A program made the position numbers and the translations under genes. The notes under the pieces were generated by a model. It searched no databases, had not been told where the DNA came from, and saw nothing but the letters and a program-made list of their open reading frames with translations. DNA of 64,000 nucleotides from Natrinema caseinilyticum (GTDB lineage Archaea > Halobacteriota > Halobacteria > Halobacteriales > Natrialbaceae): positions 3,159,369 through 3,223,368 of the forward strand of contig NZ_CP100445.1 in the NCBI RefSeq assembly GCF_024227435.1. Direction: 5' to 3'. How positions within the stretch are numbered: position 1 is the first letter of the stretch; the number at the start of each line of letters is the position of its first letter. This document shows, piece by piece, positions 23,519 to 36,058 of the stretch.

Positions 23519-26500
23519 CTATCGCGTGTCGGCGATCGCCTCGGCGACGACCTCGATCGGCGTCGGTGGCTCCTCGCTCGCGCCGGGTCGATCGCCGAGT
23601 TGGGTCCGACAGGAGGCGCCGGGAGCGACGACGCGGTCGCCCTCGCTGTCGCCGATCTGCTCGTACAGGACCGCCCCGATCGCTTTGCTCATCGAGTAGT
23701 GCTCGGCTTCGTACCCGAAACTGCCGGCCATGCCGCAACAGGTCGAGTCGAGCGGATCGACCGTGTAGCCGGCCCGCCGGAGGACGCCGACGGCGTGGTG
23801 GTCCTTCGCGTGGGCCTTCTGGTGGCAGTGACCGTGGTAAACGAGGTGGTCGTCCGCACCGGCGAAGTCGATTTCGGCGTCGAGGTCGAACCGATCGACG
23901 TACTCACAGATTCCGTGCGTACTCTCGGCGACGCGATCGACGTCGCTCCCCGAGAGCAGGTCGCGGTAGTCCGACTGGAGCATCACCGCGTCCGACGGTT
24001 CGATCAGGATCACGTCCCAGCCGTCCTCGACGAGCGGCGCGAGTCCGTCGACGGTCCCGCGCGCTTTTTCCGCCGCGAGATCGAGCAGCCCCTTCGAAAA
24101 CGCCGGGCGACCGACGTCCCGCGGCGTGGCGACCTCGACGTGAACGCCGGCGGCCTCGAGCACGGCCAGTGCCGCCTCGCCGGCCTGGGGATACTCGTGG
24201 TTGGTGTAGACGTCCGGGACGAGTACCGCGCGGCGGGTCGCCTCGGACTCCGAGACGGCAGGATCGCGATCGGCGACCCGCTTCGCGAAGGTCTGCCGTT
24301 CGAACGTCGGGAGGTCGCGCTCGCTCGAGATTCCCAGAACCGTCTCCGCGAGGAGGCTCGTCCCGGGGAGGTTCGCGGCCCAGTTGGAGACGGGCGCAGT
24401 CGCGCTGGCGATCATCGCGATCGTTTCGAAGTTCGCGAACAGTCGGTCGCGAATCGAGATGCCGTGTCGCTGGTGGTGTTCGTGGACGACTTCGGCTTTC
24501 AATTTCGCCATGTCGACGCCGCTCGGACAGTCGTGTTTGCACCCCTTGCAGCCGATACAGAGGTCGAGAACCTCCTCGACGAACTCGTCGTCGAACGGCG
24601 CATCGGGATCGAGATCCCCGCCCATCGCCCGGCGGAGCGCGTTCGCCCGACCGCGCGTCGAGAGGATCTCCTCGTGGCTCGCCCGGAACGTCGGACACAT
24701 CACGCCGCCGGTCGTCGACTGCTCGCCGCGACAACCGCCACACCCGTGACAGAGCTCCGCCATCCCCTGGAACCCGTTTTCCTCGTCCCACTCGAGGGCC
24801 GGGTCGAGGCCGGCCTCGAACGCGTACTCGGGACCGAACCGGTGGCGGTCTTTCATATCGGTCGGGTCGTCGTCGCTGAAGACGACCTGTCCCGGATTCA
24901 GGAGCCAATCCGGATCGAACGCCGTTTTCAGCTCCTGGAAGGTCTCCCACAGTTCCTGTCGGTATAGCTTTCGGTTCCACTGTGTCCGGGCACGGCCGTC
25001 GCCGTGCTCGCCCGAGACGGAGCCGTCGTACGCCACCACGAGATCGGTCACGGCGTCGGCGATCGAGGCCATATCCTCCAGCCCCGCCTCGGTCTTCGTG
25101 TTCACCAGCGGACGGATGTGGAGGACGCCGGGGCCGGCGTGGGCGTAGAAACTCGCGGAGGTGCCGTGGTCGTCGAGGATCGTCTGGAAATCGGCGACGA
25201 ACGCCCGGAGGTTCTCGGGCGGGATGCCGGTGTCCTCGATGAAGGCGACGTGTTTCTCGTCCGTCGTTCGCGAGAGCAGGATCGGTAACCCGGACTTGCG
25301 CAGCTTCCAGATCTTGCCCCGGCTGTCGTCGTCGTACGCCTCGACCGCGTCGAACGCGAGGGCATCCGCGTCGGTGATCGTCCGATCGGCCGGCTCGTCG
25401 GGTTCGCCGGCCGGTTCGACCGTCGGGCAGCGATCGGCGAGCAGGTTCGCCACCGTCCGTTCGCCGTCGGCGACGTCGTCGGCGTAGAACTCGACGATCA
25501 GGACGGCCGCCGTCCCCTCCGGGAGCATCTCGGTGACTGGGGCGAACTCGGGCGTGTCGCGGGCGAGATCGATCATCACGTCGTCGATCACCTCGACGGC
25601 GGCCGGATCGTGGTCGACGATCGACTCCACGTCGTCCATCGCGTCCAGCACCGTCTCGTACGCGAGTAGCGCCATGCTCTTTTCCGCGGGGATTGGTTCC
25701 AGGGAGACCGTCGCCTCGGTGACGACCGCCAGCGTTCCCTCGCTGCCACAGAGCAGCTTCGCCAGGTTGATCGATCCGCCCGCGGCGTCGGGTTCGCCGA
25801 TCCCGCGCTCGGCGCCCCGAGCATCTTCGACGAGCCAATCGAGGTTGTACCCGGAGACGTTGCGCTTGAGGTCGGGGTAGGTCTCCTCGATGAGGTCGCC
25901 TCGGTCCTCGAGGATGCGGGCCACTTCCGCGTAGATCGCCGACTCGAGGTCGTCGCCCGCGGCGAGTTCCGGGAGCGCCTCGAGGTCGACCTCGCCGAAG
26001 GTCGTGACGGTGCCGTCGGCGAGGACGACGTCGCACTCCTCGACGTAGGCGTCGGTCTTGCCGTACTGCAGCGAGTGGGCGCCCGTCGAGTTGTTACCGA
26101 TCGCGCCGCCGAGTGCGCTCTTGTCGCCCCAGGCGGGGTCCGGAGCGAACTTCAGGCCGTGTGGGGCCAGCGCCTCGTTGAGTGAACCGAGGTAGATGCC
26201 CGCCTGAGCGGTCGCCCGTCGCTCGTTGGCGTCGATTTCGACGACGCCGTCCATGTGTTTCGTAAAGTCGAGCACGACGGCCTCGTTGACGGTCTGGCCG
26301 GCCAGGCTCGTGCCGCCGCCGCGTGGCAGGACCGGAATCTCGCGATCTGCGCAGTATTCGACGACCGCGGCGACGTCGGCGGTCGATCGCGGGAAGACGA
26401 CCCCGATCGGCGTCACCTCGTAGATGCTGGCGTCGGTCGCGTACAACTGTCTCGAATACGAGTCCGCGCGAACCGCTCCGGCGATGCGCCGGTCGAGGTC

Positions 26501-26629
26501 GGCGACGAGCGTCGGTCGGTCGACCTCGTCGCTTCGGTAGTCGTAGTTCGCCTGCGGGTCGAGTGCAGGGTCCGGGACGGACGTCGGTCGGTCGTGCGTG
26601 TCGATCGAATCGGTTGGATCAGTTGCCAT
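23519..26629 (-). CDS. FAD-linked D-lactate dehydrogenase fused to Fe-S/CCG domains
   Basis: A 1036-residue fusion. Residues about 60-230 are a FAD-binding type 4 domain (PRGGGTSLAGQTVN), followed by a FAD-oxidase C-terminal domain to about 560. Next come two iron-sulphur motifs, CHGCGGCRGEQ and CIGCKGCKHDCPSG, and two Cys-rich CCG domains ending in CCGMAGSFGYEAEHYSMSK. This GlcD plus GlpC arrangement occurs in respiratory D-lactate and 2-hydroxyacid dehydrogenases that pass electrons to quinone. It lies 57 bases after lldP1 on the same strand, so uptake and oxidation are likely co-expressed. D-lactate is favoured over glycolate only by this context. Confidence 0.88.
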   Translation of the reverse strand: MATDPTDSIDTHDRPTSVPDPALDPQANYDYRSDEVDRPTLVADLDRRIAGAVRADSYSRQLYATDASIYEVTPIGVVFPRSTADVAAVVEYCADREIPVLPRGGGTSLAGQTVNEAVVLDFTKHMDGVVEIDANERRATAQAGIYLGSLNEALAPHGLKFAPDPAWGDKSALGGAIGNNSTGAHSLQYGKTDAYVEECDVVLADGTVTTFGEVDLEALPELAAGDDLESAIYAEVARILEDRGDLIEETYPDLKRNVSGYNLDWLVEDARGAERGIGEPDAAGGSINLAKLLCGSEGTLAVVTEATVSLEPIPAEKSMALLAYETVLDAMDDVESIVDHDPAAVEVIDDVMIDLARDTPEFAPVTEMLPEGTAAVLIVEFYADDVADGERTVANLLADRCPTVEPAGEPDEPADRTITDADALAFDAVEAYDDDSRGKIWKLRKSGLPILLSRTTDEKHVAFIEDTGIPPENLRAFVADFQTILDDHGTSASFYAHAGPGVLHIRPLVNTKTEAGLEDMASIADAVTDLVVAYDGSVSGEHGDGRARTQWNRKLYRQELWETFQELKTAFDPDWLLNPGQVVFSDDDPTDMKDRHRFGPEYAFEAGLDPALEWDEENGFQGMAELCHGCGGCRGEQSTTGGVMCPTFRASHEEILSTRGRANALRRAMGGDLDPDAPFDDEFVEEVLDLCIGCKGCKHDCPSGVDMAKLKAEVVHEHHQRHGISIRDRLFANFETIAMIASATAPVSNWAANLPGTSLLAETVLGISSERDLPTFERQTFAKRVADRDPAVSESEATRRAVLVPDVYTNHEYPQAGEAALAVLEAAGVHVEVATPRDVGRPAFSKGLLDLAAEKARGTVDGLAPLVEDGWDVILIEPSDAVMLQSDYRDLLSGSDVDRVAESTHGICEYVDRFDLDAEIDFAGADDHLVYHGHCHQKAHAKDHHAVGVLRRAGYTVDPLDSTCCGMAGSFGYEAEHYSMSKAIGAVLYEQIGDSEGDRVVAPGASCRTQLGDRPGASEEPPTPIEVVAEAIADTR

Positions 26630-26686: not shown

Positions 26687-28468
26687 TCAGAACACCTCTG
26701 GAAAGAGTACGTACGTGAACAGGAGGACCCAGATGCCGACGAAGACCGTGTAGTACAGCAGCGGAATGAGGTTGAGACGGATGACGCGTCCCTCCTCGCC
26801 GATGAGGTCCACGGTGGCGAGCGCGGCGACGACGTTGTGGATCGCCACGAGGTTGCCGATCGCGCCACCGACGGCCTGAGCGCCGACGACGAGTTCGCGC
26901 GAGAAACCGAGTCGCTCCGCGGCGACGAACTGGAACGGGCCGAAGGTGATGTTCGAGACGGTGTTCGAGCCGACCAGCGCGGCACCGAGCGCGCCGATGA
27001 GCGCGGCCACCATCGGGTACGCGGGGCCCATCACGTTCGCCGTCGCCGTTCCCAGGACGACGATCATGCTGTCGACCCCGTCGGCGTGCGAACCCGACTG
27101 GAGCATCACCTGGGCCATCGCGAGCACGAACACGAGCGCGATCAGCGGCGAGACCAGCTTCTTCGTCGCGCTCCCCCACGCCTCGGCCACTTCCCGGCGG
27201 TTCATATCGAAGAGACCGACCGCCGCGATCGCACTGACCAACAGCCAGGTGCCGGGAACGTAGGTGAAGTTGATGCCGGTGCCGAGGTCGGTGCCGAGGA
27301 CGTTCGACCACTCGAAGAGGAACAGGCCGACGGTGAACTCCCCGCCTCTCGTCGCGATCGTTCCAAGCACCGGCGAGACCTGCCTCCCGAACAGCGCCAC
27401 TTGCTCACCCTGGAGCAACGCGGGAAACGGATCGAAGACGCGAGTGATCATCAGGAGTGCCACGAGCAGCGTGTACGGAAACCACGCGCGTACGAGCGAG
27501 ATGTCGTGCGTTCTCGCCAGCACCCGCTTGGCGTCGGTCGGCTGGATCGACCCCGTCCAGTGGTCGGGCCACTCCTCCTGATCGGGAAACGTCCACTCCC
27601 CGTCGGGCTGGAAATAGCCCGCACGGAGCGCGCCGATCACGATCGCCGCGCCGACCATCGACCCCACCAGCGACGGTAACTCGGCGCTGATGAACCACGC
27701 CGACAGCCAGTAGGGGATCCCGAACGCCAGACCGGCGAACAGGCAGAGCGGCCACACCTCGAGTGCGGGTCCGATCGATCGATCGTCGGGGTCGCCGAAG
27801 AAGTACACGACCATGCCGACGACGAACAGTGGCATCACGAAGCCGACGAGCAGGTGGTACGTCGCGGCCCACGCGGCGACGTTGACGGCGAACTGGGCCG
27901 CGGTCAGGCCCTCCGCCTCGATCGCCGTCCGGATGCCGGAGACGCCCGACATCGGCTCCCTGATCCCGACGATGATCGGCGTCCCGACCGCCCCGTAGGT
28001 GACCGCGATGATGTGTCCGATCAGCGCGGCGACGACCGCGGCGAGCGCGGGAAATCCGAGGCCGAGCAGCAGGGGTGCGACGACCGCGGCGGGCGCCCCG
28101 AAACCGGCCGCCCCCTCGATGAACGTCGAGAGAAAGAACGCGATCAACACGACCTGAACGCGTCGGTCCTCGCTGATCATCGCGAACCCGCCGTTGATGA
28201 CGTCGAACGCCCCCGCCCGGAGCATGGTGTAGAGCAACACGAGCGCGCCGAAGACGATCCAGAGGATCTGAACCGCGATGAGCACCCCCTCGATCGTCGC
28301 GGCGGCCAACCACTGTACCGGCATTCCCCAGACGAGGAAGCCGACGACGAGCGCCGAGAGCCACGCGATCGGCATCGCTCTCGTCGCGGGCCAGAGCAAA
28401 CCGACGAGCAGGACGCCGACGACGATCAGCGGCACGGCTGCCAGGGCGACGGCGATCGGCTCACCCAT
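26687..28468 (-). CDS. lldP: L-lactate permease family transporter, copy 1
   Basis: A 593-residue LctP/LldP-type symporter with about 14 membrane segments. Typical stretches are [17 protein letters not shown] at the N-terminus, [19 protein letters not shown], and [14 protein letters not shown] near the C-terminal half. It would import lactate (possibly glycolate) with protons or sodium. Start at MGEPIAV is preferred over a GTG six codons upstream. It is the first gene of a two-gene operon with the dehydrogenase fusion, and a TATA-like element GATATAAC lies near 28552-28559. It is a close paralogue of the gene at 30818-32602. Confidence 0.92.
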   Translation of the reverse strand: MGEPIAVALAAVPLIVVGVLLVGLLWPATRAMPIAWLSALVVGFLVWGMPVQWLAAATIEGVLIAVQILWIVFGALVLLYTMLRAGAFDVINGGFAMISEDRRVQVVLIAFFLSTFIEGAAGFGAPAAVVAPLLLGLGFPALAAVVAALIGHIIAVTYGAVGTPIIVGIREPMSGVSGIRTAIEAEGLTAAQFAVNVAAWAATYHLLVGFVMPLFVVGMVVYFFGDPDDRSIGPALEVWPLCLFAGLAFGIPYWLSAWFISAELPSLVGSMVGAAIVIGALRAGYFQPDGEWTFPDQEEWPDHWTGSIQPTDAKRVLARTHDISLVRAWFPYTLLVALLMITRVFDPFPALLQGEQVALFGRQVSPVLGTIATRGGEFTVGLFLFEWSNVLGTDLGTGINFTYVPGTWLLVSAIAAVGLFDMNRREVAEAWGSATKKLVSPLIALVFVLAMAQVMLQSGSHADGVDSMIVVLGTATANVMGPAYPMVAALIGALGAALVGSNTVSNITFGPFQFVAAERLGFSRELVVGAQAVGGAIGNLVAIHNVVAALATVDLIGEEGRVIRLNLIPLLYYTVFVGIWVLLFTYVLFPEVF

Positions 28469-28486
28469 TGTCCACCCCTCCCCCAC

Positions 28487-28821
28487 CTACCCGGGTCCAG
28501 CGGGATCGCCACGGAACCGTCATGTCATGACTCACCATGGGAAGATGGCCGAGTTATATCTGGCGGACCGTTCACAGCCATCGCACGCCGGTTCGACCCA
28601 CCGCCGACGTACGCCGAAGCGAGACCGCCTTCGACCACGGAATCTCGCAATTCACGGCCGATGGAACCCCGAAACGCCCGTCCGTCGTCGGCCCGCAGCT
28701 TTCCGGTAACCGACGCCGGAACAGGCCCCCGAAAGCGCCCTCCTGTCCAGTCTCTATCCTCCTGTCGCCGATATTCACTCGAATGTAAAGGCATATACAG
28801 TCGTGTGTACTGGCACGAACC
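28487..28821. promoter_or_regulatory. Divergent control region of lldP1 and the winged-helix regulator
   Basis: This 335-base region has no gene. Near the left end is a minus-strand TATA box for lldP1 (28552-28559). At the right end lies GCATATAC (28791-28798), a TATA for the regulator at a leaderless distance from its ATG. Two copies of an operator-like sequence bracket the latter: CACTCGAATGTAAAGG (28776-28791) and CAGTCGTGTGTACTGG (28798-28813), starting 22 bases apart. The second ends 8 bases before the ATG, a position suited to autorepression. Confidence 0.6.
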
Positions 28822-29424
28822 ATGGCGACTGAGCGTGATCGTAACAATCACGGCCAATACTCCGATCGGATTCCCCCGGAAGCCGCACTCGAAGCCTTCG
28901 ACGAACGGGAGGACCGCGGCCGTCCGCTGACCGCGTCCGACGTCATGGAGCACCTCGATTGCTCGCGACGGACGGCGCACAACAAGCTCAACGAACTCGT
29001 CGAGGACGGTGCCCTCCAGACGCGCAAGGTCGGCGCTCGCGGCCGCGTCTGGTGGGTGCCGATCGAGGCGAAAGCGGAATCGCGGCCGACGACGGGCCGA
29101 GCGGACGAAGGGGAAACGCCGCCGACCGCCGTTCAGGAGGCGATGAGGACGGTCGATCTCCCCGGTTCGGGACCGGCGCTCGAAGCGCGACGGGAGGCGC
29201 TGCTCGCGTCGTACCAGTATCTCATCGACCACCCCACCGCGAGGAAGTCGGACTTCCTCGAGAACGTCTACCCGGACCATCCCGCTGCGTTCGAGACCGA
29301 CGAGGGCTGGTGGAACGCGATCCAACCCGCCCTGAAGGAGTTGCCGGGCGTCGATCCCCCGGAGGAACGCGGCCACATCTGGAACTTCCTCGGGAGCGAT
29401 CGGTTCACGCCGACGCTCGGGTGA
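28822..29424 (+). CDS. Winged-helix regulator of the lactate island (predicted)
   Basis: A 200-residue DNA-binding protein. Residues about 15-82 form a winged helix (LTASDVMEHLDCSRRTAHNK, then LNELVEDGALQTRKVG and RGRVWWVPIE). The C-terminal 80 residues, with EARREALLASYQYLIDHPTA and a Trp-rich end, look like an effector or dimer domain of a haloarchaeal family. Its position between two lactate-permease operons and the shared operator copies in its own promoter and near lutC point to control of lactate genes. Effector and sign of control are not known. Confidence 0.8.
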   Translation: MATERDRNNHGQYSDRIPPEAALEAFDEREDRGRPLTASDVMEHLDCSRRTAHNKLNELVEDGALQTRKVGARGRVWWVPIEAKAESRPTTGRADEGETPPTAVQEAMRTVDLPGSGPALEARREALLASYQYLIDHPTARKSDFLENVYPDHPAAFETDEGWWNAIQPALKELPGVDPPEERGHIWNFLGSDRFTPTLG

Positions 29425-29488: not shown

Positions 29489-30799
29489 TCAGACGGTGAA
29501 GACGTCCCCATCTTCGGAGCGGTAGCCTGGGTCATCGATTTCGAACCATCGGTCGCCGTCCAGTTCGACGACCCTGCTCCCCGTGGCGGTCGACGACCCG
29601 CTGGGGCCCGTCGAGAGCGTCGGCCCGGTCACGAGTACCCGTCCGACGGCGTCGTCCGGCGGGTCGCGGATCGCCCATCGCGGCACTGCCGGAACCGGAG
29701 CGAGCGTCTCGTCGACGACTCGAACGCGCATCGGTTCGATCGGCGTTCCGAGACTCCCCGCTATCAGTGCGTCGGACGATCTCGTTCCGAACGCGACCGG
29801 CCCCGTCTCCGCGTATCCCGCGACCTGGATGGCGTCGACGCCGGACCACGCACGAAGCCGGTCGCAGCGGCCCTCGTCAGGCGTCGGCCCGACGACCGCG
29901 ATCGTCCGAAGCGACCGGGGCGACGAAGTGGTCCTCGAGCCGACGGCGTCGAGCAGATCGGCGAGTTGGTCGGGCTCGAGTGCGGTGATCGTGAGTCCGC
30001 GACTCGCTCCTATTTCCTGGATTCGATCCGGATCCCACCGCGGGAGCGGCGCGTAGGTGCCCCCGGTATAGAGCGTCGCGGAGGTCGTCAGGATCACGCC
30101 GGACACCGTCGTGAGCGGGAGAGCCCCGAGGTGGACGTCCGTCGCGGCGAGCCCGCGGGGAACGAGCGCATCGAACGCTTCGACCGATGCGCGGATCGCC
30201 CCGTGCGATACCGGCGTCGCGACCAGTTCGCCCGCTCGGCTGACGCACGCGATCAGGGCCGTATCGTCGTCCCTGCGGGCGACGACGGTCGGTGAGCTGT
30301 CGTGCCGGCTCGCACCGAAGCTCATGATTCCGCTTCCGGTATCGCGACCGATCGCCGACGAGAGATCGTCCCCGTCCAACGCGTCGGCCATCGAAATCGA
30401 AAGCGGCGGGTTGCCGCCGATGGCGATCCTGACCGCGATCGACTGCTGGAACCTGGCCGTCACGAACGCCGAGAGTCGGTCGGCGACGCTGACGACGGCG
30501 CTGACGTCGCAGTCCCGGCAGATCGAGACCGCGTCGGGCAGCAGGTCGTCCGGCACGGGCACGACGACGCTGCCGTTTCGCAACGCGCCGTAGCAGGCGA
30601 TCAAACCGTCGACGCCGGGCGGCGCGTGGACGGCCACGGCGTCGCCATCGGCGATCCCCCGCCGCCGGAGGCCGCCCGCAAACCGATCGGTCAACGTCCA
30701 CAGCTCCTGGTAGGTCACCGTCCGTTCGCCGTCGTCGACGGCGACGGCGTCCGGCTGGGTCGAAGCACGCTCCTCGAGCGTATTGAGTACGTTCGTCAT
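29489..30799 (-). CDS. Degenerate adenylate-forming (AMP-binding) protein
   Basis: A 436-residue relative of acyl-CoA synthetases covering only the large N-terminal domain. The start (DAVAVDDGERTVTYQELWTL) and an A5-like GYAETGPVAF are recognisable. The phosphate-binding loop, normally SSGTTGxPK, is CVSRAGELVATPVSH, and the protein ends at the A8 region without the C-terminal domain and its catalytic lysine. Adenylation is therefore doubtful. It starts 18 bases after lldP2 on the same strand and must be co-transcribed. It may be a ligand-binding or partner protein, or a decaying gene; no frameshift is seen. Confidence 0.75.
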   Translation of the reverse strand: MTNVLNTLEERASTQPDAVAVDDGERTVTYQELWTLTDRFAGGLRRRGIADGDAVAVHAPPGVDGLIACYGALRNGSVVVPVPDDLLPDAVSICRDCDVSAVVSVADRLSAFVTARFQQSIAVRIAIGGNPPLSISMADALDGDDLSSAIGRDTGSGIMSFGASRHDSSPTVVARRDDDTALIACVSRAGELVATPVSHGAIRASVEAFDALVPRGLAATDVHLGALPLTTVSGVILTTSATLYTGGTYAPLPRWDPDRIQEIGASRGLTITALEPDQLADLLDAVGSRTTSSPRSLRTIAVVGPTPDEGRCDRLRAWSGVDAIQVAGYAETGPVAFGTRSSDALIAGSLGTPIEPMRVRVVDETLAPVPAVPRWAIRDPPDDAVGRVLVTGPTLSTGPSGSSTATGSRVVELDGDRWFEIDDPGYRSEDGDVFTV

Positions 30800-30817: not shown

Positions 30818-32602
30818 TCAGAAGAGTCCCGGGAAGAGGACGTAACTGAACACGGACGCGAAGATCCCGACCCCGATCGCGTAGTACAGCAGCGGGATCA
30901 GGTTCAGTCGCATCACGCGCCCCTCTTGACCCACGAGACCGACGGTCGCGACCGCGGCGACGACGTTGTGGATCGCCACGAGGTTGCCGATCGCGCCGCC
31001 AACGGCCTGCGCCCCGACGATGAGCTGGGTGGGAAGGCCGAGCTGGCTCGCGGCCTCGAACTGGAACCCGCCGAACGTGATGTTCGAGACGGTGTTCGAA
31101 CCGGCCATGGCCGCACCGAGTGCGCCGATGAGGGCGGCGATGAACGGGTACGCCGGTCCGACGACGTCGGCGGTCGCCTGTGCGAGGACGAAGATCATGC
31201 TCTCGGCCCCCTCGGCGTGGGCGCCGGATTGGAGCATCACCTGTACCATCGCGATGACGAACACGAGCGCGATCAGCGGCGAGACCAGCTTCTGAAGCGC
31301 CTCACCCCAGGCGGCTTTCACCCGTTCGCCGTCCATTCCGTAGAGCGGAATCGCGAACAGCGCACAGACGAAGAGCCAGAAACCCGGTACGTAGACCCAA
31401 CTGATGCCGCCACCGAGCCCGGTTCCGAGGATATCCGGCCACGACGTGGTAAACAGGAACGAGAACTTGCCCACTCCGACGAATTGCTCCTGTAACAGCG
31501 CCGGGAGCGGATCAACGATGCGCGTGACTACCAACAGCGTGACCAGCAAGATGTACGGCGACCAGGCGCGCAGCAGGGACATTTGCTGGGTGGACCGTCG
31601 CTGGACGGCGCCCCCATCGGCGACCGCCGTGCCGTCGCCCGTTCCGCCGGCGGCACCGCCGCCGCTCGACCGTCCAGGTTCGATCGTCCCGACCCAGTGG
31701 GCCGGCCACTCCTCGCGGTCCGGGAAGTCCCACTCCTCGTCCGGCACGAAGTAGCCGGCCTTCAGCGCCCCGACGACGATCGCGCCGCCGATCATCGCGC
31801 CCATCAGCGAGGGGAATTCCGCGCTGACCTGCGCCGCCAGCCAGTACGGAACGACGAACGAGAGGCCGGAGAACAGGCACAGCGGCGCGACCTCCCACGC
31901 CGGCTCGAGGCTCCGTTCTTCGGTGTCGCCGAAGAAGTAGACGACCATGCCGACGGCGAACAGAGGCATGACGAACCCGACCAGCGCGTGGTACGTCGCG
32001 GCCCAGACGGCCACCTCCACGGAGTACGCTTGCACCGTGAAACCGGCGTCGGTAATCGCCGTCTCCGTCGCCGCCGTCGACCCGAGCGGGTTCTCGATGC
32101 CGACGATGATCGGCGTCCCGACCGCCCCGTAGGTGACCGCGAGGACGTGGCCGATCAGACCGGCGATCACCGCCGCGAGCGCGGGGAACCCGAGCGCGAG
32201 CAGGAGCGGCGCAACGACGGCCGCGGGCGTCCCGAAGCCGGCCGCCCCCTCGATGAACGCCGCCAGGAAGAAGCCGATCAGCACGACCTGGACACGACGG
32301 TCGTCGCTGATCTGTGCGAATCCCTCGTTGATCCTATCGAAGGCCCCCGCCTGCATCAGCGTGTACAGCAACAGCAGCGCGCCGAAGACGATCCAGAGGA
32401 TCTGAATCGCCGTCATCGCCCCGACGATCGACGCGGCGACGATGTAGTCACCCGGCATGCCCCAGACGCCGAACCCGATCACCACCGCCGTGAGGTAAGC
32501 GAACGGCATCGCCCGCGTCGCGGGCCACAGGAGCCCGACGAGCAACACGCCGGCGAGCACCAACGGCGTCGCGGCGATCAGTACTTCGGCCGGGCTAGCC
32601 AC
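30818..32602 (-). CDS. lldP: L-lactate permease family transporter, copy 2
   Basis: A 594-residue LldP paralogue. It aligns end to end with copy 1: [20 protein letters not shown] at the start, [39 protein letters not shown], and a similar YVLFPGLF end. A loop near residues 310-340 is Gly/Ala-rich ([19 protein letters not shown]), absent from copy 1. No ATG is available; three GTG codons lie at 32611, 32608 and 32602, and alignment with copy 1 favours 32602. It leads an operon with the degenerate adenylate-forming protein. Two different copies may handle different lactate isomers or conditions. Confidence 0.9.
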
Positions 32603-32611
32603 GGACACCAC

Positions 32612-33318
32612 CCCAGCGTTTCGACCCCGGAGCTACCGAGGGACGGTCGTTACCGATGCCATGTGGAACTGAATCTGGCATGGGGGAGGCACTGTGGAAG
32701 GTCGATATATAATCTTCGATCGTTCGAGTCGTGTGATCCACAGAACTGTCCGTCTGGCTCCCTAACGATCGATTTTTCCTCACGGTCCGACGGAGTTCAT
32801 ACCGACCGCAAACGGCATCGAATGCGTCATTATACCGTGGTTCGTGTTCACGAAGGTACGGCAGTCGAACGATCTACTGCAAATGACGAAGGTCGGCGAA
32901 AACGACGCACAAGGGACCCAATTAGTCGAATTAGTGGTCGTCCTGGTCGGTCCTATCGTATTCGACGGAGTGAAGACTCCCAGTACACACGTGTGAACTG
33001 GAATTGCAGTCGTGTGAAGAGGGCTTTCAGTCGTGTGAAGAGGGAATACACTCGTGTGTAGTGGCTACTATACACGAGTGCGAAGGGGACGTCGACTCGA
33101 GCGCGCGCCTCAATTGCGCGTTTCAGTCCCGTTACGCCCGGTTTAGAGCGGCAGCTCGCGCTTCGCGAACGATGGAACCGATACCGAACGCCGACCCGTC
33201 GAGGCCCCGGATTCGTCCGACGTCGGTAGCCGACCTGCCGTCGTCTGATCCCCCGATGGCGACTTATTCCGCGTGAACGAACAGAACAGTAAAATAGGCA
33301 CGGTCGTAGCATCGTGCC
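32612..33318. promoter_or_regulatory. Long control region between lldP2 and lutC
   Basis: This 700-base region holds no convincing gene. A minus-strand TATA (ATTATATAT, 32705-32713) lies about 95 bases before the lldP2 start, and a partial operator copy GAGTCGTGTGATCCAC occurs at 32726-32741. The main feature is the repeat array at 32980-33080. At the right end, AAAATAGG (33291-33298) is a TATA about 25 bases before the lutC ATG, so that message would be leaderless. Confidence 0.6.
32980..33080 (+). repeat. Operator-like array of four 21-bp-spaced repeats plus an inverted copy
   Basis: Copies begin at 32986 (CACACGTGTGAACTGG), 33007 and 33028 (both CAGTCGTGTGAAGAGG) and 33049 (CACTCGTGTGTAGTGG), exactly 21 bases apart. 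An inverted copy (33065-33080) abuts the last, making a palindrome. The first copy extends to a near-perfect 22-bp palindrome CCAGTACACACGTGTGAACT plus GG (32980-33001). Right arms CGTGTG(A/T)A..GG are best conserved. The same sequence occurs over the regulator promoter at 28798-28813. Two-turn spacing puts all sites on one helix face. Confidence 0.75.
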
Positions 33319-33834
33319 ATGGGTGTCCACGCAGAGCGATTCGACGCTACACTCGCCGACCTCGACGTCCCGGTCACGCACACGGATCCGACGGGGTTCA
33401 ATCGCACGCTAGAGACGATCGCCCGCGACCCCGCGATCGGAACGGCGCTCCCGTTCGAATCGGTCTCGCTCCCGGACTGGGTGGACGACGAGGCGACGCC
33501 CGCGACTCTGCAGTCGGCGTCGACGGGGATCACGGCAGCTTCGATCGGTATCGCCGACTACGGGAGCGTGGTCCTTCCCGCGACGCCGTCCGGCGCGGAG
33601 CAAGTGAGTCTCTTTTCCGACTTACACGTCGCCGTCGTTCGCGCGGACGATATCGTCCCGGACATGCGGACGGCGATCGATCGGCTGGGGCCCCGACTCC
33701 GTGACGGCGGCAGCGTCATCGTCGCCACGGGACCGAGCGCGACTGCGGACATGGGCGCGCTCGTTCGCGGCGCTCACGGCCCTCGAGACGTCCACGTGGT
33801 CGTCGTCGAAACGGGGGACGAAGCGGATGAGTAG
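33319..33834 (+). CDS. lutC: LUD-domain lactate utilisation protein LutC-like
   Basis: A 171-residue LUD-domain protein corresponding to LutC of the LutABC L-lactate oxidation complex, though shorter than the bacterial form of about 240 residues. Key stretches are GITAASIGIADYGSVVL, the HVAVVRADDIVPDM strand-helix and IVATGPSATADMGALVRGAH followed by GPRDVHVVVVE. The usual GPSRT or GPSKT basic residue is Ala. Its last 8 bases overlap the start of the LutB-LutA fusion, so the two are translated together. A TATA box lies about 25 bases upstream of the ATG. Confidence 0.88.
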   Translation: MGVHAERFDATLADLDVPVTHTDPTGFNRTLETIARDPAIGTALPFESVSLPDWVDDEATPATLQSASTGITAASIGIADYGSVVLPATPSGAEQVSLFSDLHVAVVRADDIVPDMRTAIDRLGPRLRDGGSVIVATGPSATADMGALVRGAHGPRDVHVVVVETGDEADE

Positions 33835-36058
33835 CGTCGATCGCGCGGCGAAAGCCGATCGGATCCGCCACCTCCTCGAGACCGAGGGGGACGCCGTCGA
33901 GGCCAACACGCTCGGTTTCAATCGGGGCCGATACGAGTCGGTCGCGGACCTGGAGGACTACGAAACGCTGAAAGAGGAGGCCCGAACGATCAAAGAAAAC
34001 GCGATCGAACGGCTCCCGGAACTCGTCGACGAACTCACCGCGACCGTCGAGGAAAACGGCGGCAGCGTGTACCTCGCCGACGATGCGGCGGATGCGAACC
34101 GCTACATCCGCGACGTCGCGAACGAGGCGGAAGCCGATCGGGTCGTCAAGTCGAAGTCGATGACCAGCGAGGAACTGGAAGTCAACGACGCACTCGAACG
34201 CGAGGGCGTCGACGTCGTCGAGACCGACCTGGGCGAGTGGGTCCTGCAGGTCGCCGACGACGCGCCCTCGCATATCGTTGCGCCGGCGATCCACAAGTCG
34301 CGCGAGGAGATCGCCCGGCTCTTCACGGATCAATTCGAGCCCGATGTGCCGCTCGAAACCGCCGAGGAGCTGACGATGTTCGCCCGCGAGCGCCTCGGCG
34401 ACCTGATCGAGGGGGCTGACATCGGTATGACCGGCGCGAACTTCATCACCGCGGATTCGGGGTCGATCGTGCTGGTGACGAGCGAGGGCAACGCCCGGAA
34501 GACGGCCGTCGTTCCGGACACCCACGTCGCCGTCGCCGGCATCGAAAAGATCGTTCCGTCGGTCGAGGACCTCGCCCCCTTCGTCGAACTGATCGGCCGA
34601 TCGGGGACCGGACAGGACATCACGTCGTACGTCTCCTTGCTGACGCCGCCGGTCGAATCCCCCGTCGTCGACGTCGAAGAACCCGACGTCGCGTTCGCGG
34701 ACCGCGACGACCGTCGAGACTTCCACCTCGTGTTGATCGACAACGGCCGCACGGCGATGCGCGAGGACGACCAGCTTCGCGAGACGCTGTACTGCATCCG
34801 GTGTTCGGCCTGTGCGAACTCGTGTGCGAACTTCCAGTCGGTCGGCGGCCACGCCTTCGGCGGGGAGACGTACACTGGCGGGATCGCGACCGGGTGGGAA
34901 GCGGGCGTCCACGGCACCGACAGCGCGGCCGATTTCAACGACCTCTGTACCGGCTGTACGCGCTGCGTGAACGCCTGTCCGGTCGGAATCGACATCCCGT
35001 GGATCAACACCGTCGTCAGGGATCGGCTCAACCGCGAGGGCGACGACGGCCGGTTCGAGTTCGTCTACGACGAACTGGTCCCCGACGAGGAACCCGGAGG
35101 CCTCGACCTCCAGAAGCGACTGTTCGGAAACTACGGGACGCTCGCGAGGGTCGGGAGCGCGACCGCCCCGGTCTCGAACTGGCTCGCCGGTCTCGCCCCG
35201 GTCAGGGCGCTCATGGAGCGCGTCGTCGGTATCGACGAGCGCCGGGAGCTCCCGACCTTCCAGCGCGAGACGCTTCGCGAGTGGTACGACGCGCGCGGAC
35301 CGCGGATCGACACCGCCGACGCGGACCGCGAGGTCGTCCTCTACCCCGACACATACACGAACTACGTCGACACCGATCGGGGCAAGGCCGCCGTCCGCGT
35401 CCTGGAGACGCTCGGCGTTCGCGTTCGCGTTCCCGCGGTCGGCGAAAGCGGTCGCGCGCCGTTCTCACAGGGGATGGTCGCGACCGCCAACCGGCAGGCG
35501 AGCCGCGTTTACGCGGCCCTCGCCGAGGACGTCGACGCCGGCCGGGACGTCGTCGTGATCGAACCCAGCGACCTCGCGATGTTCCGCCGCGAGTACGAGA
35601 AACTCCTGCCCGAGCGATCGTTCGAACGCCTCCGCGACAACAGCTACGATATCTGCGAGTACGTCTACGGCGTCCTCGAGAACGGCGGCGATCCCGGGGG
35701 ACTCCGAACCGCTGGCGACGGCCCGGGGATCGCCTACCACGCACACTGCCAGCAACGAACGCTGGGACTCGATCGCTACACGACCGCCGTCTTGGATTAC
35801 CTCGGATACGACGTCGTCGAGAGCGACGTCGAGTGTTGCGGGATGGCCGGCAGTTTCGGCTACAAGCGCGAGTACTACGAGTTGAGTACGGACGTCGGCG
35901 ACCGTCTCGCGGACCAGTTCGCCGAACCCGACGCGCGCGATCGACTGGTCGTCGCCAGCGGGACCTCCTGTGAGGAACAGTTGGGGGACCTGCTCGATCG
36001 CGACGCGGTCCATCCGATAGAAGTGATCGATCCGCGCTTCCGCTGGCCCGACCCCTGA
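33827..36058 (+). CDS. LutB-LutA fusion: LUD, ferredoxin and CCG domains
   Basis: A 743-residue protein joining two subunits of the lactate oxidation complex. Residues 1-300 are LutB-like LUD (GMTGANFITADSGSIVLVTS). Then come iron-sulphur clusters CIRCSACANSCAN and CTGCTRCVNACPVG near residues 325-385, and the LutA-like CCG domains to the end, with YHAHCQQRT and ECCGMAGSFGYKREYYELS. The C-terminal half resembles that of the D-lactate dehydrogenase fusion in this island, including SATAPVSNWLAGL. Together with LutC it should oxidise L-lactate to pyruvate using the quinone pool. It starts within the lutC coding end. Confidence 0.9.
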   Translation: MSSVDRAAKADRIRHLLETEGDAVEANTLGFNRGRYESVADLEDYETLKEEARTIKENAIERLPELVDELTATVEENGGSVYLADDAADANRYIRDVANEAEADRVVKSKSMTSEELEVNDALEREGVDVVETDLGEWVLQVADDAPSHIVAPAIHKSREEIARLFTDQFEPDVPLETAEELTMFARERLGDLIEGADIGMTGANFITADSGSIVLVTSEGNARKTAVVPDTHVAVAGIEKIVPSVEDLAPFVELIGRSGTGQDITSYVSLLTPPVESPVVDVEEPDVAFADRDDRRDFHLVLIDNGRTAMREDDQLRETLYCIRCSACANSCANFQSVGGHAFGGETYTGGIATGWEAGVHGTDSAADFNDLCTGCTRCVNACPVGIDIPWINTVVRDRLNREGDDGRFEFVYDELVPDEEPGGLDLQKRLFGNYGTLARVGSATAPVSNWLAGLAPVRALMERVVGIDERRELPTFQRETLREWYDARGPRIDTADADREVVLYPDTYTNYVDTDRGKAAVRVLETLGVRVRVPAVGESGRAPFSQGMVATANRQASRVYAALAEDVDAGRDVVVIEPSDLAMFRREYEKLLPERSFERLRDNSYDICEYVYGVLENGGDPGGLRTAGDGPGIAYHAHCQQRTLGLDRYTTAVLDYLGYDVVESDVECCGMAGSFGYKREYYELSTDVGDRLADQFAEPDARDRLVVASGTSCEEQLGDLLDRDAVHPIEVIDPRFRWPDP

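Follow-up and report, generated by a model that had tools for sequence, protein, structure and literature searches.

Between two divergently oriented lactate genes of Natrinema caseinilyticum lies a regularly repeated DNA element, and the question raised by this locus is which protein reads it and how it could act on its neighbors. The window, meaning the whole stretch of 64,000 nucleotides analyzed, contains seven copies of a 22-bp dyad with the consensus CCANTACASWCGWSTGTANTGG. Five of these form the main array, in tandem at 32980-33086, between lldP2 (lactate uptake) and lutC (lactate oxidation). The dyads begin at 32980, 33001, 33022, 33043, and 33065, that is, in steps of 21, 21, 21, and 22 bp. 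The predicted operator sites, with their scores from a position weight matrix (PWM), and the flanking genes are as follows.

30818..32611, minus strand: lldP2, L-lactate permease, divergent from the array (Pfam PF02652, 4e-100)
32980..33001, unstranded: operator site 1, CCAGTACACACGTGTGAACTGG, PWM 29.0; top profile match genome-wide, E 0.004
33001..33022, unstranded: operator site 2, GAATTGCAGTCGTGTGAAGAGG, PWM 18.5
33022..33043, unstranded: operator site 3, the weakest of the array, GGCTTTCAGTCGTGTGAAGAGG, PWM 14.9
33043..33064, unstranded: operator site 4, GGAATACACTCGTGTGTAGTGG, PWM 23.9; profile match
33065..33086, unstranded: operator site 5, 22 bp past site 4, CTACTATACACGAGTGCGAAGG, PWM 17.5
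33319..33834, plus strand: lutC-like LUD-domain protein (Pfam PF02589, 5e-17)
33827..36058, plus strand: lutB-like LUD/Fe-S protein of the LdhH/LutB type (NF045670, 5e-135, below the curated cut-off)

The original prediction described four copies of a 16-base element starting 21 bases apart, and the starts given for them (32986, 33007, 33028, and 33049) are all exact. Over the 16 bases, copies 2 and 3 agree fully, with three differing positions in copy 4 and four in copy 1. The extension of the first copy to a near-perfect 22-bp palindrome also holds, as CCAGTACACACGTGTGAACTGG at 32980-33001 contains one mismatched pair. The copies are real, but the true unit is the 22-bp dyad, present five times in the array. 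Similarly, the repeat taken for an inverted copy next to the fourth exists, but is really a fifth dyad in register, reached by a 22-bp step. Immediately past the array, at 33087-33115, a loosely conserved GRCTGGYRCGCGCTNNCAA-like stretch is seen in Natrialbaceae.

The remaining two dyads, 22 bp apart at 28770-28813, lie over the TATA box of a winged-helix gene at 28822, in the following surroundings.

23519..26629, minus strand: dld/glcD-type FAD oxidase fused to Fe-S/CCG domains (Pfam PF02913, PF01565), likely a D-2-hydroxyacid or D-lactate dehydrogenase
26687..28486, minus strand: lldP1, second L-lactate permease, divergent from the regulator gene (Pfam PF02652, 1.5e-104)
28770..28791, unstranded: operator site upstream of the regulator gene, GATATTCACTCGAATGTAAAGG, PWM 21.1
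28792..28813, unstranded: operator site over the regulator's TATA-like box, CATATACAGTCGTGTGTACTGG, PWM 25.4; conserved in locus L039
28822..29424, plus strand: regulator gene, 200 aa, with an N-terminal winged helix and a C-terminal winged-helix-like domain (Pfam, structure models, orthologues)

A recurrence of the right arm of the element over this promoter, at 28798-28813, had been predicted and is found there as CAGTCGTGTGTACTGG; rather than a single recurrence, however, two full sites are present, at 28770 and 28792. Gene starts and TATA boxes, here and below, were assigned from sequence. The pair brackets the TATA-like GGCATATACAG, and its second site ends 8 bp before the regulator ATG. 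Elsewhere, as in Haloferax and a number of other families, it is the array itself that precedes the regulator gene, with a TATA-like box enclosed by its final two sites at 22-bp spacing. In arrays covering the regulator promoter, this last junction reads AAGGCTTATGCAGT, with the TATA-like box within it. A protein bound over the TATA box would block basal factors or polymerase, so that autorepression is the natural reading, and the regulator likely represses its own gene. Between the regulator gene and lldP2, 29489-30799 encodes a 436-aa AMP-binding protein without a match to the C-terminal domain; relatives of this gene were found only in L039 (the same genome as L033) and, weakly, in L046.

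The sites exceed chance expectation and are confined to one locus. A PWM trained on related loci, with neither the window nor its two closest named relatives included, ranks exactly these seven sites first in the 64 kb, with scores from 14.9 to 29.0 and the next best at 9.6. Retraining on the regulator-upstream sites of genomes outside Natrialbaceae picks the same seven. In the 707-bp intergenic region, matched shuffles lead to an expectation of 0.0036 sites scoring at least 14.9, while five are present. A profile search of the whole 4.77-Mb genome returned 10 matches at E<=10, all in this locus; since this profile includes six window sites, the two PWM tests are the independent ones. At the level of simple patterns, the 12-mer CGTGTGWANWGG occurs eight times in the genome, six of them in this locus, and a search for the 22-bp dyad allowing three or fewer mismatches likewise gives eight matches, six in this locus, with none for the reversed control. 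The 12-mer matches at 917127 and 2597848 were discarded, as the left arm is absent in both; the former lies within a sugar-epimerase-like frame and the latter in a stretch with only short candidate frames. Random scattering of the element over the genome, which would have spoken against the original prediction, is not observed. In eight other genomes searched with the profile, every match at E<=0.5 maps to the regulator/lactate locus in seven, and the eighth has no match.

Comparison across haloarchaea was performed with one genome per species. Orthologues of the 28822 protein occur in Natrinema, Natronorubrum, Halobiforma, Natrialba, Haloferax, Halogranum, Halobellus, Haloarcula, and others, the nearest named relative of the window genome among these being Natrinema gelatinilyticum. 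Within the locus stretches examined, lldP, lutB/C, or dld genes accompany 53 of the 60 orthologues, as against 1 of the 19 relatives sharing only the HTH. Nearly all close-orthologue loci carry the sites, within the regulator/lldP or the lldP/lutC intergenic region, while 30 lutB loci from same-family genomes without a close regulator orthologue contain none scoring above 12 (maximum 8.8). The proposed check, namely whether element and 28822-type regulator co-occur across haloarchaea, therefore came out positive, and the suspected link between array and regulator is strongly supported by comparative genomics. Over about 55 loci, spacings of 21 bp (28 cases), 22 bp (43 cases), and 42-44 bp (16 cases, one site being skipped) prevail, with few others. 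The loci are related by descent and these counts are not independent; yet arrays of different families share the spacing while their flanks have diverged. The last step is 22 bp in 32 of 41 arrays. The predicted phasing by two helical turns is thus a conserved property of the locus.

Profile searches of 61 relatives are in line with this. In the genus of the window, matches occur only in genomes with the regulator. In other genera, matches were found in G031 and G055, where orthologues are present, and in G030, beside a short HTH paralogue; isolated marginal matches (E 0.14-0.29) occur in G032, G054, and G057. The G030 paralogue is a 114-aa frame (G030:C79:23904-24227); two sites matching the profile lie immediately upstream of it, 35 bp from each other, and may reflect the same recognition in another geometry. 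Four orthologue loci (L073, L076, L080, and L097) have no site above 12, which indicates that specificity differs in parts of the family.

The regulator protein itself has no name in Pfam or NCBIfam searches. Its Pfam matches are to HTH models only, the best being HTH_20 at 2e-5, just under the curated cut-off. Structure searches place the N-terminal half among generic winged helices, with Z scores of 8-10 across 60-77 residues. For the C-terminal half, whose fold resembles a winged helix, the nearest neighbor is the WHB domain of cullin (Z 8.4 across 74 residues, at rmsd 2.7 and 8% identity), a likeness that may reflect a common arrangement and nothing more. Judged by these models, neither domain indicates a specific family, and no ligand pocket is evident in the two winged-helix domains. 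In the A3 alignment of 47 members, the recognition region (R49, T51AHNKL56, T67RK69, R75V, and W78) is nearly invariant, in keeping with a conserved operator site, and the C-terminal WW (163-164) is invariant; the window protein has both traits. No Lrp/AsnC model, including the C-terminal RAM (AsnC_trans_reg) domain, appears among the Pfam matches of the 47 members at E<=0.01, and neither the GntR HTH nor the FCD effector domain matches the window protein or any member. The IclR HTH matches weakly in 34 of the 47, with the window protein below the curated cut-off, and the IclR effector domain matches none. On these domain searches, the regulator falls outside the Lrp and GntR families and is built of two winged-helix domains. 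It belongs to a haloarchaeal lactate-locus regulator family, defined here, and the window shows the corresponding 22-bp dyads at 21/22-bp spacing in the upstream regions of the regulator gene and of the lactate genes.

The position of the main array relative to the core promoters is essential for any account of its action. In Natrialbaceae, including the window, it lies between lldP2 and lutC, whose predicted promoter elements are as follows.

32705..32713, minus strand: likely lldP2 TATA box ATTATATAT, conserved in related loci
33273..33298, plus strand: lutC core promoter, GTGAACGAACAGAACA followed by TATA-like GTAAAATAGG

The latter pair is near-invariant in the lut promoters of regulator-carrying Natrialbaceae, and none of the 30 control lutB loci showed it; it may represent a second cis element or an unusual BRE/TATA. 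In the lldP2 leader (32656-32681, minus strand), an inverted repeat, ATGCCA-N14-TGGCAT, lies close to where lldP2 transcription is predicted to begin; several genera share it, and it may be an operator or a leader hairpin. Measured from the lutC start, the site centers in the window fall at distances of 243-328 bp, and about 267 bp separate the likely lldP2 TATA box from the near edge of the array. In most Natrialbaceae lut arrays, the last junction lacks a TATA-like box and makes a better operator, reading GGCCAGTACAGT in many. With the array more than 200 bp from both flanking core promoters, action at a distance is suggested, through activation, a nucleoprotein structure, or a loop. To our knowledge, such long-range action is uncommon among described archaeal regulators, which speaks against this reading.

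In the mechanism proposed here, the 28822 protein would read the 22-bp dyad, most simply as a dimer, and would fill the five tandem sites about two helical turns apart, its bound units lying on one DNA face and probably touching. Because sites at this distance put successive proteins on the same face, binding of the array would likely be cooperative, in line with the cooperatively bound oligomer that the original prediction suggested without giving a direction of control. By also occupying the pair of sites that cover its own TATA box and start, the protein would repress its own gene, while the array between the divergent lldP2 and lutCB would control both as a single-locus lactate regulon, working at long range through activation or a nucleoprotein structure. 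The comparative evidence demonstrates the site, its spacing, its restriction to the locus, and its pairing with the regulator; binding of the array by the 28822 protein is the step predicted from that pairing. As a whole, the explanation of the array as the operator of the local 28822 regulator, with autorepression and distant control of lldP2 and lutCB, is considered highly probable. Control of lut and lldP would probably occur by activation or by a nucleoprotein or looping effect. The more specific version, in which a phased nucleoprotein array of this two-winged-helix family controls divergent lactate promoters more than 200 bp away in combination with autorepression at the TATA site, is put forward tentatively.

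The same operator and regulator could instead constitute a plain lactate-relieved repressor and nothing else, the array, with a distant site where present, looping or extending so that the divergent lldP and lut genes are silenced until lactate appears. The coverage of the regulator's TATA box fits this idea. So does a separate site 119-120 bp before the array in many loci (range mostly 84-130), recurring in Haloferax, Natronorubrum, and Natrialba, since a site ahead of the array would suit looping. However, array and distant site leave the lldP and lut core promoters uncovered in the loci examined, and the window has no separate distant site. The helical phasing of that site (R 0.5-0.6 over all loci) was rejected as unconvincing, with p 0.04-0.29 when each distance is counted once. 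A purely repressive role is a possibility of the less favored kind, about one chance in three. That some other DNA-binding protein, such as a global regulator or chromatin protein, reads the array, with the 28822 gene as a bystander and target, is improbable: the regulator promoter could be merely one more target, but a global regulator would show at more than one locus, and the site clusters occur solely in genomes that have the regulator family and accompany its gene even to loci without lactate genes in the stretch examined, such as L075 and L071.

Two further explanations concern the origin and form of the repeats. Local duplication probably helped to build the array, given the near identity of copies 2 and 3, but an array that is only a by-product of tandem duplication, devoid of regulatory function, is contradicted by spacing, dyad symmetry, and position, all conserved across families with diverged flanks, and is hardly credible. 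Nor is there appreciable likelihood that the alternating core CACACGTGTG forms Z-DNA read by a Z-alpha-like domain. Although Z-alpha is among the structural neighbors of the N-terminal domain (Z 9.8, 62 residues, rmsd 2.0) and purines and pyrimidines alternate in the best sites, many ordinary winged helices reach nearly the same score, alternation through the central 14 bp is seen in only 14 of 149 sites, and CAGTCG and CACTCG half-sites are common.

Under the preferred account, control by the 28822 regulator, lactate or a product of it would be the signal. In 43 loci, an Nramp_1-type transporter gene lies directly downstream of the regulator (e.g., L061:10732-12576); almost all of these are outside Natrialbaceae, some have no lactate genes in the stretch examined, and the window genome has no Nramp_1 gene. 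Orthologues without lactate neighbors (L081 and L075, around 10001) adjoin acetamidase/formamidase or ABC-type transporter genes, which suggests that they regulate other small-molecule uptake. Because some orthologues stand beside other transporters or Nramp_1, lactate as the signal is uncertain; the candidates are lactate or a related acid, with a metal less probable.

The locus offers a testable regulator-operator pair for haloarchaeal lactate use, a process for which the open-access papers searched yielded no regulator. The original prediction knew of no description of the site, and in these papers none was found for operator or regulator. The variable site count, fixed two-turn spacing, and array-promoter separation in Natrialbaceae represent a natural evolutionary series, which makes it possible to test the distant action of phased arrays on archaeal promoters. 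With so tightly defined a site, regulons can also be predicted in unstudied haloarchaea.

Among known systems, the bacterial LldR/LutR regulators of the GntR family are local regulators encoded beside lactate permease and oxidation genes, with operators between or around their target promoters. The present regulator gene likewise adjoins lactate permease and oxidation genes, but its product has no GntR/FCD match, works with an archaeal basal promoter, and is associated with a tandem phased array instead of one or two operators. With regard to the enzymes, LudBC of Haloferax volcanii (HVO_1692/1693) is a probable lactate dehydrogenase (PMC8305020), and lutBC here is of the same enzyme type; the passages on LudBC describe no regulator or operator for it. 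Equating the cluster with H. volcanii HVO_1692-1697 was dropped, since PMC11349517 lists HVO_1695 as a putative iron-sulfur protein. Archaeal Lrp proteins have operators at two- or three-turn center-to-center spacing, and two genes activated by them are bound more than 100 bp upstream of the start; dimers of Ss-LrpB from Sulfolobus solfataricus bind several operators in their own control region cooperatively, autoregulate, and control permease and central-metabolism genes (PMC2995911). The 21/22-bp spacing found here matches this spacing trait of Lrp/AsnC proteins, so that the regulator would work alike without being a member. Multiple phased operators, including a predicted set at its own promoter, and permease and metabolic genes as predicted targets are shared with Ss-LrpB, whereas the missing Lrp/RAM match, the different 22-bp dyad, the up to five sites, and the predicted one-locus regulon set it apart. 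Since archaeal Lrp proteins already combine two- or three-turn sites with autoregulation, the principle of phased multi-operator control is known; what is new here, on present sequence comparisons, is an undescribed regulator family that uses it.
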